Virus record (IMG/VR): IMGVR_UViG_3300020160_002672
Location: 1-38,257 of that record
Source of the DNA: a virus
Length of the DNA: 38,257 nt
Strand: one strand, 5' to 3'
The notes under the pieces were generated by a model, which had not been told where the DNA came from, made no database searches, and saw only the letters and a list, made by a program, of their open reading frames with translations. Positions 1,288 to 15,566 of the stretch are shown here, piece after piece. Position 1 is the first letter of the stretch. Each line of letters begins with the position of its first letter. The position numbers were made by a program, and so were the translations under genes.

Positions 1288-3698
1288 GTTATGGATTTCA
1301 AGCACTAAATGACAACAATCAAGTTTTAATTTCCAGTGAAACCAAAAACTTGCACTTTATACAAAAATTAACTGGGCCCAGAAATACAACAGTGTCTATT
1401 TCTGACCCTGATGCAGGTATTATTTATTCCACTAATATTAATGGTGGAATTCGTCGTTGGAGATACACAGCTACTTGTGCAAATACTCCTGTACCGTTTT
1501 TTACAATGCCTACAAATGATTTTTATGGCATTTTACGAATAGTAAATAAAAATAATAGTCGCTGGGACATTGAAATTTTTAGATCAGGAACCAGCGATAC
1601 TGTTCCTGAACTTTATATTTTTTCCGACCCTGCTCTGCCTTTTACACTTCCACATAGAGGCAGTTCCGCCTATGAAACTGCTTTTACTGCTGCGCAACAA
1701 AGTAGTGGTAGACTAGTACCCATAAGAGCGTATCCTGATTCAGAATATGTAATTTATAAATACACCGTTAGTGGTGGGGGCTTTTTTGCGTCATATTTAG
1801 AATCAGCGCGTCAAGGCAGCATAGTGCCGCTTCAAGATTTTACAACAATGACAGCGCTTAGTCCAACAGGTCAGACAGCTACTTCAGACGTATCATACAC
1901 GGTATTATTGCCGTGGAACATTAGTTTTGGAACTAGAGACAACATAGATAGACTTTATATTAGTAAATGTAGTGTTGTTACTTTTGATACTCCCAGACTA
2001 GATATACCAAATGTACACGTTCCTTATTCAGGGTGGTCAACTCCTAATTTAGATGACTGCATTCTGTTAAGTAGTGCAGACCGATGGAGTTTTGATGATA
2101 CTGCATACAGTAATCAATTTAATCCAGCTGGCGTTTGGGTAACCACTACAGGAACAGCCCCCAATAGAAGATTCTATATAAGAGCTAGATTTCACGATAT
2201 AACGGGGGGAGCGCTTACAGCAGCGCTTAACTTGCCGCCACCATTATCCTGGCAAATAATGTTACCAGAAAATGACCCTGGTAAACAGTGGATACGTTTT
2301 GGACAAAATAGTGACTACACTTGGCCAGAAAATTTCCCAAAAGCGTATATATACAAAGATACTACAGAATATGGAATGGTAGTTTACAGAGACGATGGGT
2401 CTCCAAGTTTTGATAGTAGAAAACAACCTCTTGTAGTTAATGCCGCTGTTACAGTAACACACCCTAGTAATCCTAGAACTGTGTCTGCTATAAGTTCTGA
2501 GGCAACCGCCGCTCGAAGTTGTAATGCTGTTAATGCTGATAATGCCTATATGTTTCAAGCAGATCAGACTAACTCATACATAATGTATCCGTCTAGCTTA
2601 TCAACAAACCCAGCAAAACCAATATTTAGCTTTTTAAGTATTGCCCAATCTCAAAGACAAATAACTGCCTATAATACTCAAGGATATAACGATCAATTTT
2701 GGGGGCAAGAAACCAACCGAGACTATTTTTACAGCTATTATTGGCAATTTTATCGCGGGGCAATTTCAAATCCCGTAACTACTCTAACAGGATTACACAT
2801 ACTGAGTGAAGATATTACTAGAACACTTGGTACACAGCCGAATTCCGAATTCAATATTACAAACAACTTTTTTTTCAATAAAAGTAGTACCGGTGCTTGG
2901 GAACAGCGTGCAACGCCATCAGGAGACGATGGTCTGTGGGTACAATATCTTCCCTGGGATATTTACTTTACTAATAAAGAAGGTACCGCTGCGGTAGCTT
3001 ATAACGCAGTTTTTATTTCTACAAATGGATATTTAACTTTTAACTATTTTAATTACTCTAGTAATACATATAGAGATCCCGACGCTGGCAGCTTTGAGTA
3101 TAGTAACTTAATTACAGCAAGTACTTTAGTAGGAGCACGTATAATGATTTATGGTGCAGATAATAGTGCATACAGATATTATGCAGATATTACAGGAACA
3201 GCTCCTAATAGAGTTTACCGTATTCGTTATACAGGATATCCAAGTTCTAATGGTTGGACGCAATATGCAACTGCGACCCCAACTTTAGTATGGGAAATTC
3301 AATTTCCAGAAAATAAACCAGATGAAATGTACATTGTATTTCCTGCAATAATCCAAGTACAGGGCGGCGCAGTACTTGGCGTAGGTACTTCAAACGGCTG
3401 GCAAACTGTATCACAGCCATCGGCGTTTAGCGAACAAATTACTCCCAAAAATTTAATAATTAAAAAGGTTAGATCAGCTGCAGATTATAGAGATTCACCA
3501 GTACTACGGGCTGGATGGGGCACACATGATTTTGGTTGTAATTATTACTTTTATAATAGTGGTGGAGGCGGTGCAATTGGTGGACTATTTGGGCCTGGTA
3601 GTAATACTAGTACTGGGGGGGTCTGGCCTTATACTAACGACACCTTAAACTTAGCAGATAACACTGTGATAGTAGCAGACGGAAGTAAGTATGATTGA
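1284..3698 (+). CDS. large adhesin/tail fibre-like protein with an internal duplication
   Basis: An 804-residue beta-rich protein, translationally coupled to the gene before it. After the shared N-terminal module (MSYGFQALNDNNQV) there are two related blocks, one around residues 205-345 and one around residues 545-690. Each contains LPW(N/D)I, a run with ISTNGYLTF-like character, TGTAPNR followed by an IR(A/Y)R-type strand, and W(Q/E)IxxPEN followed by a YI/WI strand. The C-terminus is Gly/Ser-rich, with GGGGAIGGLFGPG. It is followed by three genes that overlap it or lie close behind. A receptor-binding or tail-decorating role is inference from size, composition, repeats and position. No S74 chaperone or lyase motif is seen. 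Confidence 0.6.
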   Translation: MSYGFQALNDNNQVLISSETKNLHFIQKLTGPRNTTVSISDPDAGIIYSTNINGGIRRWRYTATCANTPVPFFTMPTNDFYGILRIVNKNNSRWDIEIFRSGTSDTVPELYIFSDPALPFTLPHRGSSAYETAFTAAQQSSGRLVPIRAYPDSEYVIYKYTVSGGGFFASYLESARQGSIVPLQDFTTMTALSPTGQTATSDVSYTVLLPWNISFGTRDNIDRLYISKCSVVTFDTPRLDIPNVHVPYSGWSTPNLDDCILLSSADRWSFDDTAYSNQFNPAGVWVTTTGTAPNRRFYIRARFHDITGGALTAALNLPPPLSWQIMLPENDPGKQWIRFGQNSDYTWPENFPKAYIYKDTTEYGMVVYRDDGSPSFDSRKQPLVVNAAVTVTHPSNPRTVSAISSEATAARSCNAVNADNAYMFQADQTNSYIMYPSSLSTNPAKPIFSFLSIAQSQRQITAYNTQGYNDQFWGQETNRDYFYSYYWQFYRGAISNPVTTLTGLHILSEDITRTLGTQPNSEFNITNNFFFNKSSTGAWEQRATPSGDDGLWVQYLPWDIYFTNKEGTAAVAYNAVFISTNGYLTFNYFNYSSNTYRDPDAGSFEYSNLITASTLVGARIMIYGADNSAYRYYADITGTAPNRVYRIRYTGYPSSNGWTQYATATPTLVWEIQFPENKPDEMYIVFPAIIQVQGGAVLGVGTSNGWQTVSQPSAFSEQITPKNLIIKKVRSAADYRDSPVLRAGWGTHDFGCNYYFYNSGGGGAIGGLFGPGSNTSTGGVWPYTNDTLNLADNTVIVADGSKYD

Positions 3699-6648: not shown

Positions 6649-7785
6649 ATGACTAAAAAAATAGCAATTATTGGGAACGGAACGGCCGGTTGTTTAACTG
6701 CTTCTCATTTCAATCGTTTTAGTGTCAATACTGAAATTGAATGGTATTTTGACCCTAGTATTAAACCTCAAGCAGTTGGGGAAGGGTCGTTAATAGATTT
6801 AGCAGTTGATCTACACCGCAGTTTAGAGTTTAGTATATCAGATCTTTATAGCATAGGCGGAACAATAAAAACGGGCATTAGAAAGATTAATTGGGGCAAT
6901 GTTGATACGTTTGATGAAAATTTTACGTTTGGTAAACATGGATTACATTTTAATGCACTACATTTACAGGATTTTATATTAAAAAAAGTGCATCAAGAAG
7001 GCAAAGTTAAAATTATAGAAACTAATATAAATCATGCACAAATAGATGCTGATCATATTATCGATTGTTCAGGATTTCCAAAAGATTATTCTCAACATAT
7101 AGAATCAGAATATATTCCTGTAAATTCTGCATACGTAACACAATGTTTCTGGGATTATCCAAAGTTTAATCATACACTAACAATTGCAAGACCATACGGT
7201 TGGGTTTTTGGTATTCCTTTACAGAATAGGTGTGCTATTGGTTATATGTATAACTCCAGTTTAAATTCTTTAGAAGAAATTAAAAAAGATGTGCTTAATG
7301 TATTTGATAATTTTAACCTTACTCCTAGTAGCACTACAAATCATTTAAATTTCAAAAACTATCATAGGCAATATAACTTTTCAAAACAAGTAAGTTATAA
7401 TGGAAATGCTTCATTGTTTTTAGAACCTCTAGAGGCAACCACACTAGCAGTTGTTAACAAAAATAAAAAACTAGCATTTGATTTAGTATACAATAATATT
7501 TCAATAACCATATTAAACAATTATTATATTAATATGGTAAATGAGATTGAAACCATTATAATGCTTCATTATTATGGCGGATCTAAATTTAATACAAAAT
7601 TTTGGGAATTTGCTCAGGACAGGGGTTCTAAAAAAATAGAATCTATGAAATCTTCAACAAAATTTATGGAATTCCTAATAAAAAGTAAACAAAATAATTC
7701 TAATGAATATGCAGAATTTGGTACGTGGGAAAAAACAATTATGCATCAAAATATAAAAACTTATAACTTTTATTCTACTATTTAA
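6649..7785 (+). CDS. flavin-dependent tryptophan halogenase-like protein
   Basis: A 378-residue FAD-binding protein. GNGTAG (residues 9-14) is the dinucleotide-binding GxGxxG. GEGS (44-47) is where halogenases have GEAT. IKTGIRKINWG (73-83) holds K74, which lines up with the catalytic lysine of PrnA-type enzymes. IIDCSGFP (137-144) is the second FAD strand. GWVFGIP (184-190) corresponds to the WxWxIP signature with the second Trp replaced by Phe. LEPLEATT (258-265) corresponds to the LEPLES region, with Ser replaced by Ala. It is shorter than cellular enzymes (about 500 residues). Halogenase activity is therefore uncertain; the substrate and partner flavin reductase are unknown. Related genes are known from cyanophages. 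It is more AT-rich than its neighbours by eye. Confidence 0.7.
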   Translation: MTKKIAIIGNGTAGCLTASHFNRFSVNTEIEWYFDPSIKPQAVGEGSLIDLAVDLHRSLEFSISDLYSIGGTIKTGIRKINWGNVDTFDENFTFGKHGLHFNALHLQDFILKKVHQEGKVKIIETNINHAQIDADHIIDCSGFPKDYSQHIESEYIPVNSAYVTQCFWDYPKFNHTLTIARPYGWVFGIPLQNRCAIGYMYNSSLNSLEEIKKDVLNVFDNFNLTPSSTTNHLNFKNYHRQYNFSKQVSYNGNASLFLEPLEATTLAVVNKNKKLAFDLVYNNISITILNNYYINMVNEIETIIMLHYYGGSKFNTKFWEFAQDRGSKKIESMKSSTKFMEFLIKSKQNNSNEYAEFGTWEKTIMHQNIKTYNFYSTI

Positions 7786-7792
7786 TAGTACT

Positions 7793-7812
7793 TGGTAGTA
7801 AAACAACTACCA
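7793..7812. other. hairpin after the halogenase-like gene
   Basis: TGGTAGT (7793-7799) pairs with ACTACCA (7806-7812) around a 6-base loop, starting 8 bases after the stop codon. No T run follows, so I do not call it a standard terminator; it may protect the 3' end or act with the inverted repeat that overlaps it. Confidence 0.5.
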
Positions 7813-7931
7813 CCATATTATAACACACTACTCGCCACTTAATAAATATATGCGGAGTAAACGTACGCACACCTTCCGCGGGTAACTAGGATTAGCTTAA
7901 CCTAGCTTGGGTAGTGTGTTATAATATGGTT
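7812..7931. repeat. 20-bp perfect inverted repeat around a 79-bp spacer
   Basis: ACCATATTATAACACACTAC (7812-7831) is the exact reverse complement of 7911-7930. Each arm carries TATAAT on its outward-facing strand, and the right arm supplies the -10 of the tmRNA promoter. The 79-bp spacer has no gene; it contains GCGGA/TCCGC (7852-7856 with 7875-7879) and CTAGG/CCTAG (7886-7890 with 7901-7905) pairings. It could be a divergent promoter pair, an operator, or a strong RNA hairpin for read-through from the halogenase gene. Confidence 0.8.
7897..7925 (+). promoter_or_regulatory. sigma-70-like promoter of the tmRNA gene
   Basis: TTAACC (7897-7902), a 17-bp spacer, then TATAAT (7920-7925). It predicts a start near 7932, which would make a tmRNA acceptor piece of about 58 nt. 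The -35 matches the consensus at four of six positions. Confidence 0.65.
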
Positions 7932-7989
7932 GTATGAAGCAAACAGAACGGTGTCTTGGACGGGGGTGCGAATCCCCCCAGGTCCACCA
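7932..7989 (+). ncRNA. tmRNA acceptor piece
   Basis: It contains a T arm of GGGGG (7962-7966), loop TGCGAAT (7967-7973) and CCCCC (7974-7978), then the acceptor 3' strand, discriminator A and encoded CCA (7987-7989). The T loop has G where T55 is usual. GTGTCTTG (7951-7958) can pair with CAAG and ACGT at 8110-8118 of the coding half (one bulged T), giving the P2-type helix that joins the two pieces. Confidence 0.85.
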
Positions 7990-8083
7990 CAAGCACTATC
8001 AACCTTGGCACCTCGTGGTGGTAGATAGCGACTGCAGCGCGAACGGTATAGATAGAAACCTGCTACCAGATAGTGCTTATGAT
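7990..8083 (+). other. tmRNA intervening segment, removed during maturation
   Basis: AAGCACTATC (7991-8000) pairs perfectly with GATAGTGCTT (8069-8078), and TGGTAG (8019-8024) with CTACCA (8063-8068). The precursor would thus form a long rod stacked on the acceptor stem. In permuted tmRNAs this loop is cut out by tRNA-processing enzymes (RNase P at the coding-piece 5' end, 3' trimming after CCA); that step is inferred here. Confidence 0.85.
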
Positions 8084-8250
8084 GGGCCTGCATAGTTTCG
8101 ACAGGGCGACAAGTACGTGAGTGGACAACTCAGCAGAGTAGCTGTAAAAACTAAACAAAAGTAAACGCAAACGACTCACAGTTCGCATTAGCAGCCTAAA
8201 CACTGCTTAGGGTTTCCGTCAGCTTTCCTCGTAACAGAATAAGCTGGCAT
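8084..8250 (+). ncRNA. tmRNA coding piece with tag ANDSQFALAA
   Basis: It begins with acceptor strand GGGCCTG and the D-loop-like CATAGTTTCGACAGGG. GAGT/ACTC (8119-8122 with 8128-8131) and CAGC/GCTG (8131-8134 with 8141-8144) lie where pseudoknot 1 is expected. The tag codons GCA AAC GAC TCA CAG TTC then GCA TTA GCA GCC end at TAA 8197-8199. CCTAA/TTAGG encloses the stop codon, as in helix P5. GTCAGCTT (8218-8225) pairs with AAGCTGGC (8241-8248) at the end and has no T run. Confidence 0.9.
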
Positions 8251-8264
8251 TAACAAGGAATTTT

Positions 8265-8807
8265 ATGAAAAAAATCTTAACCGCAAGTTTACTTGCACTA
8301 TCTATGTCTGCAATGGCAGCGGATTATTTTAGCGTTGACATTGATTCTGTCAATGACCAAACTTCTGGTGCTCGCAGTACTGCTCAGTACATTCGTGCTG
8401 GTAAAGAAGTTAGTGGCATTCAGTTTGGTGCACAAGGGCGTACAGCCACATTTGAAACTGGTGGCATGATTCATAGCCTAGAAGTTACAGCTGGTAAATC
8501 CGTGTTTGGTGTCACACCTTTTGTTGGTGTTGGCTTTGATAACGGATTGAACGGTGCTCGTAATGCTGATTATAAATACGGCTTAGTAGGTGCAACTGCT
8601 GGTTTAAAAGTTGGCCCTGGTTTTGCTTTGGCTGGTGTAAAAACCCGTGTTGGTACAACTGCCGTCACTGAAACCAAACAATCTGTCGTTTTTGGCACTT
8701 ACAGTGTTGCTGTTGCCAAAAACGTAGCCATTAATCTTAACGCGAGCAAAAGCTACCAAGACATTCAAGAGAATGCTTATGGTTTGGGAATTGGCTTTAG
8801 CTTCTAA
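8265..8807 (+). CDS. outer-membrane beta-barrel protein with signal peptide
   Basis: A 180-residue protein with a textbook signal peptide: MKKIL, a hydrophobic LTASLLALSMS stretch, and a likely AMA-A cleavage after residue 18. The mature 162 residues alternate polar and hydrophobic residues in about eight strands with Gly-rich turns, and end in GLGIGFSF. A terminal Phe preceded by alternating aromatic/aliphatic residues is the beta-signal read by the BAM complex. AAGGAA lies upstream of ATG 8265, only 15 bases after the tmRNA coding half, with no terminator between, so it may be co-transcribed. Possible roles are receptor masking, superinfection exclusion or altered permeability; none can be chosen from sequence. 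It implies a Gram-negative host. Confidence 0.75.
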   Translation: MKKILTASLLALSMSAMAADYFSVDIDSVNDQTSGARSTAQYIRAGKEVSGIQFGAQGRTATFETGGMIHSLEVTAGKSVFGVTPFVGVGFDNGLNGARNADYKYGLVGATAGLKVGPGFALAGVKTRVGTTAVTETKQSVVFGTYSVAVAKNVAINLNASKSYQDIQENAYGLGIGFSF

Positions 8808-8818
8808 GTAGTAATACA

Positions 8819-9415
8819 ATGACAAATAGCCTAGATGATTTACTTGACCCTAAATCAGGGTCAACAGAGTTTTTTACTAAAAACACAAGTAATTCTTACG
8901 AGTTTTATTTGTCAGGTGAACTATTAGAACCAGAACATTATACTGCCTGGTTTGATATTATCCGTAATGCTAGAACTTATGATTCCATTAAACTGTACAT
9001 CAATAGTTGTGGTGGTGATTTATACACTGCAATTCAATTTTTACGCGTAATGGGTGAAAGTGCTGGACACATTACCACTAGTGTAGAGGGTGCTTGTATG
9101 AGTGCCGCAACTATGGTATTCCTATCAGGGCACAGTTACGAAATAACTCCACACAGTTTGTTTATGTTTCATAACTATTCAGCCGGAGTATTTGGTAAAG
9201 GTGGTGAAATGTACGATCAGCTACAGTTTGAACGAGTGTGGTCTGAAAGTTTCTTAAGCCAAGTCTACAAAGATTTCTTAACTAACGAAGAAATTCAAGC
9301 TATGTTACACAACAAAGATATTTGGATGACTTCAGAACAAGTAATACAGCGTATTGATAAATTAATAGAATCACGTAAAGAAAAATCGCCAGACCTGTCT
9401 ACAAATGCTTCTTAG
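8819..9415 (+). CDS. ClpP-like serine protease (S14 family)
   Basis: A 198-residue protein with ClpP landmarks: INSCGGDLYTA (61-71, for the family's INSPGG), a catalytic Ser95 in GACMSAATM, His118 in FMFHNYSAG, and a third residue Asp167 in HNKDIWMTSEQV. The order Ser-His-Asp and the spacing fit the family, as does the length (ClpP is about 195-207 residues). The N-terminus is longer and acidic rather than a propeptide. Phage ClpP-like enzymes are often prohead proteases, but here no head gene is near and the gene lies 11 bases after the outer-membrane protein gene, downstream of a tmRNA. It may degrade tagged or host proteins, alone or with host ClpX/ClpA; this is inference. Confidence 0.85.
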   Translation: MTNSLDDLLDPKSGSTEFFTKNTSNSYEFYLSGELLEPEHYTAWFDIIRNARTYDSIKLYINSCGGDLYTAIQFLRVMGESAGHITTSVEGACMSAATMVFLSGHSYEITPHSLFMFHNYSAGVFGKGGEMYDQLQFERVWSESFLSQVYKDFLTNEEIQAMLHNKDIWMTSEQVIQRIDKLIESRKEKSPDLSTNAS

Positions 9416-13765: not shown

Positions 13766-14719
13766 ATGAATAAACTAGAACAATATTTAAACCTAGCTTC
13801 CAGAGCATACTATGCCGGTAGTCCAATTATCAGTGATGAGCAATTTGATAGCTTAGCTGAATCAATTGGCTACAATAGTGTGGGCGCTAAACAACATACT
13901 AATGTTGAGCGTCATGTATATCAAATGTATAGTTTACAAAAATATTATGACGACGAAGATAAGAAACGTCCTTTGGAAGGTATTCGAGATATTGCTGTTA
14001 GTACTAAGTTGGACGGGGCAGCTGTTAGCTTACTGTATGTTGATGGCAATCTTGTTAGGGGTCTTACACGCGGTGATGGTGTAGAAGGTCAAGTAATTAC
14101 TGACAAGTTGTTAGCTACTAAACTTGTACCCCATGAAATACCTATTAAGGGTGTATTTCAAGTGACTGGTGAGATCGTGGCTCCTAAAAACATTGAAAAT
14201 GCTAGGAATTATGCGGCAGGCGCACTAAATCTAAAAAATGCAGATGAGTTTAAAACTAGAGCTATTAGTTTCTTTGCATATGGGATACAACCAAGTATTG
14301 GTTCAACATTTAATCAAGATATGGTTGAGTTGAAATCTTTTGGATTTAGTGTAATTAATGAACCTGATCTAGATAAAATCTATCCTTGCGATGGAGTAGT
14401 GTTTCGTGTAAATGATAATAAAACATTTTACGAAATGGGATATACAGCTAAACATCCAAGAGGCGCATATGCAAGAAAAGAGCGAGCCGAACACGTTGAA
14501 ACAAAACTCATCGCAGTTGAGTGGCAAGTGGGTAAATCAGGTAAGGTTACACCTGTCGCTATCTTAGAACCGGTTTATATTGGTGATGCTCTAGTCTCTA
14601 GAGCTACTCTTAATAATCCTGGTTTTATCGAAATGCTTGATCTCCAAATCGGAGACACAGTAGCGGTAATTCGCTCTGGTGAGATTATTCCTTGTATCTT
14701 ACACAAAGTAGATGCTTGA
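13766..14719 (+). CDS. ligA: NAD-dependent DNA ligase, N-terminal subunit (Ia, adenylation, OB)
   Basis: 317 residues covering the first half of LigA. A short Ia-like segment (AYYAGSPIISDEQFDSL, residues 15-30) would bind NMN. VSTKLDGAA (78-86) holds the adenylated Lys81 (KxDG), TRGDG is at 101-105, and TGEIVAP at 134-140 supplies motif III. DGVVFRV (209-215) is motif IV, Lys238 in GAYARK is motif V, and the OB fold runs through WQVGKSGKVTP to SRATLNN. It stops before the zinc finger, HhH and BRCT domains, which are encoded by the next gene. Cellular LigA is a single chain of about 670 residues. Its role is sealing nicks at the phage fork, using host NAD. Confidence 0.92.
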   Translation: MNKLEQYLNLASRAYYAGSPIISDEQFDSLAESIGYNSVGAKQHTNVERHVYQMYSLQKYYDDEDKKRPLEGIRDIAVSTKLDGAAVSLLYVDGNLVRGLTRGDGVEGQVITDKLLATKLVPHEIPIKGVFQVTGEIVAPKNIENARNYAAGALNLKNADEFKTRAISFFAYGIQPSIGSTFNQDMVELKSFGFSVINEPDLDKIYPCDGVVFRVNDNKTFYEMGYTAKHPRGAYARKERAEHVETKLIAVEWQVGKSGKVTPVAILEPVYIGDALVSRATLNNPGFIEMLDLQIGDTVAVIRSGEIIPCILHKVDA

Positions 14720-14804: not shown

Positions 14805-15566
14805 ATGAGAATCGAAATACCAACCGAATGTCCTTGCTGTAATTATACCTTAGAACTGGTCAACGATCAGCTCTTTTGTAGAAACACAGCTTGCGGTGCT
14901 CAGTTAAATAAAAAGCTCGAACACTTCTGTAAGACGCTTTCTATTAAAGGTATGGGTACTCGTACAGTAGAAAAACTTAGTCTAGCAGATATTACTGAAT
15001 TGTATTATCTAGACCGAGACCAAGTAGTTGAAGCAGTGGGTAGTACAAAAGTAGCAGAAAAACTTCTTTTAGAAATTGAAAAATCTAAGTCAGCCGATTT
15101 AGCAACCATTCTAGCATCGTTTTCAATACCTCTTGTGGGTAATACTGCTTCAACAAAAATTTGTCAAGTTGTTAACTCAATTGATGAAATTAATCAGGAA
15201 ACTTGCAAGCAAGCAGGTTTAGGCGAGAAAGTTACACAAAACTTATTGTCTTGGCTAGAAACTGATTTTATAGAAATGAGAGAGTTTTTGCCTTTCACAT
15301 TTCATTCTCAGAAAAGTTCTGTTGTAATTGGGGATTTAAAAACCATTTGCATTACAGGAAAATTATCTTCATTCAAAACTAAAGCAGAAGCACATAAAGC
15401 GCTGGAAGTTGCAGGATACAAGGCAACAGAGTCTGTAACAAAAACCACAGACTATTTAGTAGATGAAGAAGATAAAGGTAGTACAAAACGCAAAAAAGCC
15501 GAATCACTCGGAATAACCATAATCACAAACTTAAATAATTTCTTGAAAGAAAATAAAAATGACTGA
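14805..15566 (+). CDS. NAD-dependent DNA ligase, C-terminal subunit (Zn finger, HhH, BRCT)
   Basis: 253 residues covering the second half of LigA. A four-Cys zinc finger is formed by Cys9, Cys12, Cys25 and Cys30 (ECPCC...LFCRNTAC). Helix-hairpin-helix repeats follow (KGMGTRTVEKL, then VGNTASTKI and AGLGEKVTQNL). A BRCT domain lies in the last 80 residues (TICITGKLSSFKTKAEAHKA, then DYLVDEEDKGSTKRKKAESL). It should bind DNA and hold the adenylation subunit on nicks. The Lys-rich end overlaps the following gene by 8 bases. Confidence 0.9.
   Translation: MRIEIPTECPCCNYTLELVNDQLFCRNTACGAQLNKKLEHFCKTLSIKGMGTRTVEKLSLADITELYYLDRDQVVEAVGSTKVAEKLLLEIEKSKSADLATILASFSIPLVGNTASTKICQVVNSIDEINQETCKQAGLGEKVTQNLLSWLETDFIEMREFLPFTFHSQKSSVVIGDLKTICITGKLSSFKTKAEAHKALEVAGYKATESVTKTTDYLVDEEDKGSTKRKKAESLGITIITNLNNFLKENKND

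Follow-up and report, generated by a model that had tools for sequence, protein, structure and literature searches.

A phage-borne permuted tmRNA gene of the beta type with an attached, covarying RNA that may dimerize through a palindromic loop

The IMG/VR record IMGVR_UViG_3300020160_002672, analyzed here in its whole length of 38,257 bases (hereafter, the window), carries a complete beta-type tmRNA gene of the permuted, two-piece kind, the 5' end of which is touched by a conserved structured RNA. Taken alone, the tmRNA adds one more example to a known kind, which the occurrence of the beta type together with T5-like replication genes extends only modestly. The new part is the attached RNA, which is undescribed, widespread and strongly covarying; its loop palindrome is kept by compensatory change, a testable sign of RNA dimers. 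Considering the evidence jointly, we are inclined to regard the locus as a working beta-type two-piece tmRNA of an uncultured phage, placed in a tRNA array and doubling as a carrier of separate structured RNAs, the upstream one of which would be a homodimer acting in trans.

Results

The tmRNA gene was called as permuted by ARAGORN (7897-8290, tag ANDSQFALAA) and was matched by two Rfam models, RF01850 (beta_tmRNA) at 7883-8255 with 104.1 bits against a cut-off of 84 (E 8.2e-31) and RF04321 (tmRNA_permuted) at 7928-8199 with 114.8 bits against a cut-off of 47 (E 7e-22). Since both scores exceed the cut-offs, the match is far from chance, and the comparison with tmRNA models that a sequence-only reading of this DNA had proposed thus came out in its favor. 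We delimit the gene at 7930-8253 on the plus strand, where all the features described below lie unless stated otherwise. The acceptor half (7930-7989, TTGTATGAAG...CAGGTCC-ACCA) contains the T arm GGGGG-TGCGAAT-CCCCC (7962-7978) and the acceptor 3' strand CAGGTCC (7979-7985), followed by ACCA (7986-7989), so that the CCA end is encoded. It lies upstream of the coding half (8084-8253), which comprises the 5' strand GGGCCTG (8084-8090), TTTCGACA, the PK region and the 3' part. As that reading had described, the two halves pair over 7 bp (7979-7985 with 8084-8090), and the third pair of this acceptor stem is G3:U70, the identity determinant for alanyl-tRNA synthetase. Between the halves lies a structured intervening segment of 94 nt (7990-8083), closed by the 10-bp helix already noticed there (7991-8000 with 8069-8078). 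The tag frame stands at the expected place (8167-8199, GCA AAC GAC TCA CAG TTC GCA TTA GCA GCC TAA); it is open, starts with a resume alanine codon and encodes ANDSQFALAA with its hydrophobic ALAA end, followed by a stop.

The start of the gene needed correction. The sequence-only reading had let it begin at 7932; the tmRNA itself stood, at 7930-8253, but GGUUG at 7928-7932 pairs with CAACU at 8126-8130 in the coding half, the same 5' helix being drawn in the Rfam models, and a conserved leader RNA (7808-7934) belongs to the locus. At that stage neither this leader nor the proposed role of the intervening segment as a carrier of cargo was recognized.

Comparison with a sister phage, L003, agrees with a two-piece product. 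While the two phages are about 86-90% identical elsewhere, identity reaches 96.7% in the acceptor half and 96.5% in the coding half. The intervening segment measures 94 nt in the window versus 67 nt in L003 and is mostly unalignable, only the ends of the closing helix and a TAGAT..AGAAACCT core being common to both; that is, the halves are conserved and the segment between them is free to vary. We have practically no doubt that 7930-8253 is a genuine permuted tmRNA gene, and we consider it highly probable that the gene works.

That the gene is phage-borne, as had been proposed, is secure, and its setting is one of T5-like replication genes: the family A DNA polymerase and the flap endonuclease have their nearest matches in T5-like Vibrio phages (about 49-50% identity). 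A DnaB-type helicase, a ribonucleotide reductase, PhoH and an endolysin are also encoded in the window, together with nine tRNAs plus the tmRNA. The NAD-dependent DNA ligase is represented by two ORFs (13766-14719 and 14805-15566), split as in T5.

Whether permuted tmRNAs had been described in phages was left as a question by the sequence-only reading, and the answer is positive. The phage Melnitz, infecting OM43, carries one, and among 133 distinct phage tmRNAs 53 two-piece structures were found, 50 of them marine or aquatic, while any tmRNA is carried by 2.3% of phages overall (PMC9004378). The tmRNA database holds 79 bacteriophage sequences (PMC11915505); a tally of 2014 had counted only about ten phages with a tmRNA (PMC4131195). 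In our searches, too, permuted tmRNAs were common among viral contigs. With Melnitz and the pelagi- and cyanomyophages the window shares a complete permuted ssrA, an aquatic phage as carrier, location in an early or tRNA region and an attached structured RNA; Melnitz, however, has an alpha-type tmRNA and a glutamine riboswitch, whereas the window has a beta-type tmRNA, T5-like replication genes and an unrelated leader RNA. The RF04321 and RF01850 models have the same gene order (acceptor half, intervening segment, coding half), G3:U70, the T arm and the tag end ALAA, but a hairpin of roughly 30 nt between the halves in place of the 94-nt structured segment. The window tmRNA also lacks the 3' terminator hairpin of the beta type and differs further in being phage-carried. 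In Cupriavidus (L299, L301) the acceptor stem CAGGTCC/GGGCCTG and the ends of the segment (GAAGCAC...CTTCTGAT) are the same as in the window; the Cupriavidus tmRNA differs in having a bare 32-nt hairpin as the segment and the tag ANDEKFALAA in place of ANDSQFALAA, and no leader RNA was seen with it.

Two further loci deserve mention. The cultured cyanophage Synechococcus phage BUCT-ZZ01 (L203) has an apparently unannotated permuted tmRNA with a 111-nt intervening segment, adjoining a tRNA with a CTA anticodon that ARAGORN calls tRNA-Pyl. One contig (L205) contains two tmRNA-like genes, at 2072-2362 and 2951-3156, of which one is a full permuted tmRNA and the other is partial (Rfam model positions 3-131); the intervening segment of the partial one holds the putative dimer RNA described below.

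The leader RNA (7808-7934) is a three-way junction that abuts the tmRNA on its 5' side. Its P1 arms form a 24-nt inverted repeat (7808-7831 and 7911-7934), which encloses the hairpins P2 (7852-7879, strands 7852-7856 and 7875-7879) and P3 (7886-7905, strands 7886-7890 and 7901-7905). The region has a folding z of -5.46 and is 95.8% identical in L003, and the same RNA, with compensatory changes, precedes the tmRNA in L004, L005, L006, L019 and L021. Patterns taken from the leader core recovered more instances from viral contigs, about 50 distinct contigs in all. The consensus order is P1, the invariant strand GCCACUUAA..AUA.AUG, P2 (G-N-GGA / UCC-N-C), GGGU and P3, and the unpaired core is invariant in 40 sequences. 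Across 22 relatives 13 of the 24 pairs were changed on both sides, with 96.5% of cells paired; one pair column of P2 (37/64) varies between CG, UA and AU, and three pairs of P3 are changed on both sides. The covariation score was 0.434 and dropped to 0.02-0.11, with 2-4 pairs, when the partners were slid by 1-3 columns. A covariance model built for the family, R1, found the window copy (7819-7923) at E 9e-23, recovered the other pattern-found instances and added two that every pattern had missed (L029, L198). From these data the leader is, in all likelihood, a real structured RNA. Bases 7928-7934, the last of P1, are claimed by the 5' helix of the tmRNA as well, so that full formation of both helices at once is impossible.

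A short ORF over the leader hairpin (ATG CGG AGT ... GGG TAA) was considered and rejected: it seemed to be kept in the window, L004 and L005, but its frame breaks in L009, L205 and L237.

Candidate structured RNAs of phages have been catalogued in print on a large scale. Judged against Rfam, INPHARED and PLSDB, the leader RNA family is undescribed. In the window and its relatives the 4227 models of Rfam 15 gave only chance microRNA and snoRNA scores far below cut-off, and the searches of INPHARED and PLSDB produced nothing convincing among 50,697 phage records and no plasmid. There was likewise no match in the E. coli genomes searched, and none in 380 genomes from the phylum of the bin that contains L204, the latter search being one without a positive control.

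The position of the RNA relative to its neighbors was counted in the 49 instances with a defined P1. It touches a permuted tmRNA in 33 of them, directly 5' in 12, inside the intervening segment in 14 and directly 3' in 7; among the remaining 16, located elsewhere, 8 touch a tRNA, and in the tRNA-flanked cases the RNA mostly starts immediately behind the CCA of the tRNA that precedes it. For eleven instances the available DNA contains no tmRNA. A permuted tmRNA is present in 19 of the 24 motif-bearing records, to be set against the 2.3% of all phages that have a tmRNA of any kind. In a set of loci retrieved by an acceptor-half pattern, and hence unselected for the motif, the leader occurred in only 1 of 120, which marks it as a feature of certain aquatic phage groups. 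Release of the leader RNA by tRNA-trimming enzymes would be the natural model for these arrangements.

The P2 loop of the window contains the palindromic hexamer CGUACG (7862-7867). In 33 of 38 distinct loops the hexamer three bases past GGAGU is its own reverse complement, as compared with 0-3 loops at other offsets, although its bases had been left unspecified in the search patterns. The palindromes account for 13 of the 18 different hexamers (CGUACG, CUCGAG, UGUACA, CGCGCG, GCGCGC, CUGCAG, UCUAGA, ACUAGU, ACCGGU, GCCGGC, CCUAGG, UCCGGA and GUCGAC), for which P is 2.6e-20 at a chance of 1/64 each. Maintenance of the palindrome while its letters change points to pairing with an identical partner. 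Such a partner could be sought in the same record or in a second molecule, and it is the latter, a homodimer, that is favored, since all 24 of 24 records hold one motif copy each and a second hexamer copy nearby was not in excess (7 versus 8.1 expected). We consider it likely that the leader RNA forms a homodimer via kissing P2 loops. Kissing-loop dimers are known among RNAs, the retroviral dimer initiation site being an example; it resembles the P2 hairpin in that its loop presents a self-complementary hexamer with purines on either side, but we claim no sequence or structural relation, and the leader differs in being of phage origin and a three-way junction. The idea that every cargo class would have palindromic loops was not supported, the other classes showing no clear enrichment (7 versus 3.1, reached by 4 of 60 shuffles).

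As to the intervening segment, 76 distinct ones were extracted, mostly from viral contigs; the extraction rule captured 93 of the 167 permuted calls. The viral segments are 30-211 nt long, with a few shorter, and those of Cupriavidus 32 nt (three plasmid tmRNA loci of this one genus). The closing helix is at least 8 bp long in 60 of 70 segments, as against a mean of 17 and a maximum of 23 when 3' ends were swapped among segments. What the helix encloses varies: it can be the putative dimer RNA, a member of one of at least six further classes of recurring sequence, or a small ORF. An ORF running from an early ATG to the segment end is present in 11 of the 47 segments of at least 80 nt; in 500 dinucleotide shuffles of the segments the number of open ORFs averaged 3.4 and never exceeded 9. 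Several of the segment ORFs start behind a Shine-Dalgarno-like stretch. A further pair of segments, in L149 and L236, encodes homologous proteins of 49-50 aa (50% identical, E 2e-16), and the pair has a dN of 0.39, a dS of 2.7 and a dN/dS of about 0.14, a sign of purifying selection on segment ORFs. A homologue search with an ITS protein returned the same sequence only. In L247 and L272 two cargoes stand in tandem in the segment, with a mini acceptor hairpin GGAGATGATAGGTATCTCTACCA between them. The segment of the window is a structured RNA and not an ORF, and has no recognized relative apart from its near-twin L002, L003 sharing the short core only.

Discussion

The proposed action of the locus is as follows. 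Once transcribed, the precursor would be cut by host tRNA-processing enzymes at its encoded CCA (7989) and just ahead of GGGCCTG (8084), and two helices, the acceptor stem and GGUUG/CAACU, would keep the two tmRNA pieces together. The tmRNA would be charged with alanine by virtue of G3:U70, bind SmpB and rescue stalled ribosomes; it might, as the sequence-only reading suggested, replace the tmRNA of the host or compete with it. The SmpB would need to be that of the host, as smpB was found neither in the window nor in 18 related records (19 records in total) by a search that was positive in 10 of 14 control genomes. Nascent chains would receive the tag ANDSQFALAA and thereby be marked for Clp proteolysis, in which the ClpP encoded by the phage may also take part. 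The same cuts are expected to release the segment (7990-8083) and the abutting leader as separate structured RNAs, the P2 loops of the latter kissing, most likely in a homodimer, which probably acts in trans. One might guess that the leader is a decoy or a protein-binding RNA in translation or anti-defence. More generally, there is perhaps an even chance that phage permuted tmRNA genes serve as expression cassettes, in which the excised segment and the abutting RNA are slots for trans-acting small RNAs and nested mini-protein genes, freed by host tRNA-processing enzymes. If the segment is such a cargo slot, tmRNA maturation also makes small RNAs and nests mini-genes, which would explain the preference of these phages for the permuted form. 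The covariance model and the patterns provide a search handle for hosts and functions.

The chief competing explanation, which we hold to be rather unlikely, is that of an ordinary phage tmRNA whose leader and segment have no independent function and just act as spacers in the precursor, their pairing only aiding maturation (as an RNase III helix or by presenting ends for RNase P). Both elements do abut processing sites, and bacterial intervening segments also have a closing helix. Yet the invariant unpaired core of the leader and the maintenance of its palindromic loop by covariation are not expected of a spacer, nor is the occurrence of the same RNA before, inside and after tmRNAs as well as between tRNAs without a tmRNA; the selection acting on segment ORFs argues in the same direction.

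Still less probable, in our opinion, is that the leader acts in cis, as a riboswitch or promoter controlling the tmRNA. There is a precedent, a glutamine riboswitch having been proposed as controlling tmRNA in Melnitz (PMC9004378); in the window, as in 11 further instances, the RNA stands 5' to the tmRNA, and its 3' arm contains a promoter match, TTAACC-17-TGTTATAAT, ending at 7925. However, control of the tmRNA in cis alone does not fit the 21 instances in which the leader is inside the intervening segment or downstream of the tmRNA, and Rfam riboswitches, glnA included, gave no match at E <= 10 in 7795-7945 and none in the relatives either. A sigma-70 promoter in place of a leader RNA was specifically rejected: the -10 TATAAT is lost in L004 (GTTTTTTTATGG) and L005 (GCTAAAATATGG), and it is only the pairing that is conserved. 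The least probable alternative, and one we think very doubtful, is an RNA element, mobile or selfish, that would insert beside tRNA-like genes without being of use to its phage. Although several positions relative to tmRNA and tRNAs are occupied and the cargo differs between close relatives, the element is present as one copy in each of 24 records, has no endonuclease or transposase seen adjoining it and is strongly conserved in its core.

In the window a tryptophan-halogenase-like ORF (6649-7785; PF04820, phrog_2928) separates tRNA-Thr from the leader RNA; L003 has no such ORF at that place, and its tRNA-Thr is directly followed by the leader RNA and the tmRNA. An ORF with a signal-peptide-like start (8265-8807) lies between the tmRNA and clpP, its ribosome-binding site being located a few bases past the tmRNA 3' end with no intervening terminator. 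On the minus strand, a 63-aa ORF antisense to the tmRNA (7902-8093), containing GGPGGIRTPV, is spurious; false genes of this type are predicted on the strand opposite tRNA-like sequences. A different signal-peptide-like ORF is found upstream of the tmRNA in L204 (CAIMDH010000093.1), a contig in a bacterial MAG; it is a viral fragment with tRNAs, a permuted tmRNA and a ClpP-like gene, and has probably been misbinned. As the sole genome match with this tag class, L204 was considered as a pointer to the host and rejected, being a viral fragment; the sampled phylum of the MAG has genomes of 0.5-2 Mb.

Downstream of the tmRNA, at 8819-9415, the window encodes a ClpP-like protease, assigned by its match to phrog_1827 and by motifs resembling the catalytic S95/H118/D167. 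Among relatives of this gene, a permuted tmRNA lies within 1.5 kb upstream, often abutting, in 29 of the 68 viral loci with enough upstream DNA. In the unbiased tmRNA set a ClpP relative was found at only 7 loci, all downstream, on the same strand and within 2.5 kb, several of them in one lineage. The tmRNA-ClpP linkage is real in the relatives of the window, and much of it is explained by shared descent. It is conceivable that a phage-made tag and a phage-made ClpP operate together using host ClpX. A ClpP-like gene shortly downstream of the permuted tmRNA, on the same strand, is regular in the phage group of the window (L003-L043), and the gene also follows the tmRNA in a few other lineages (L082, L110, L123, L132, L154 and L173).
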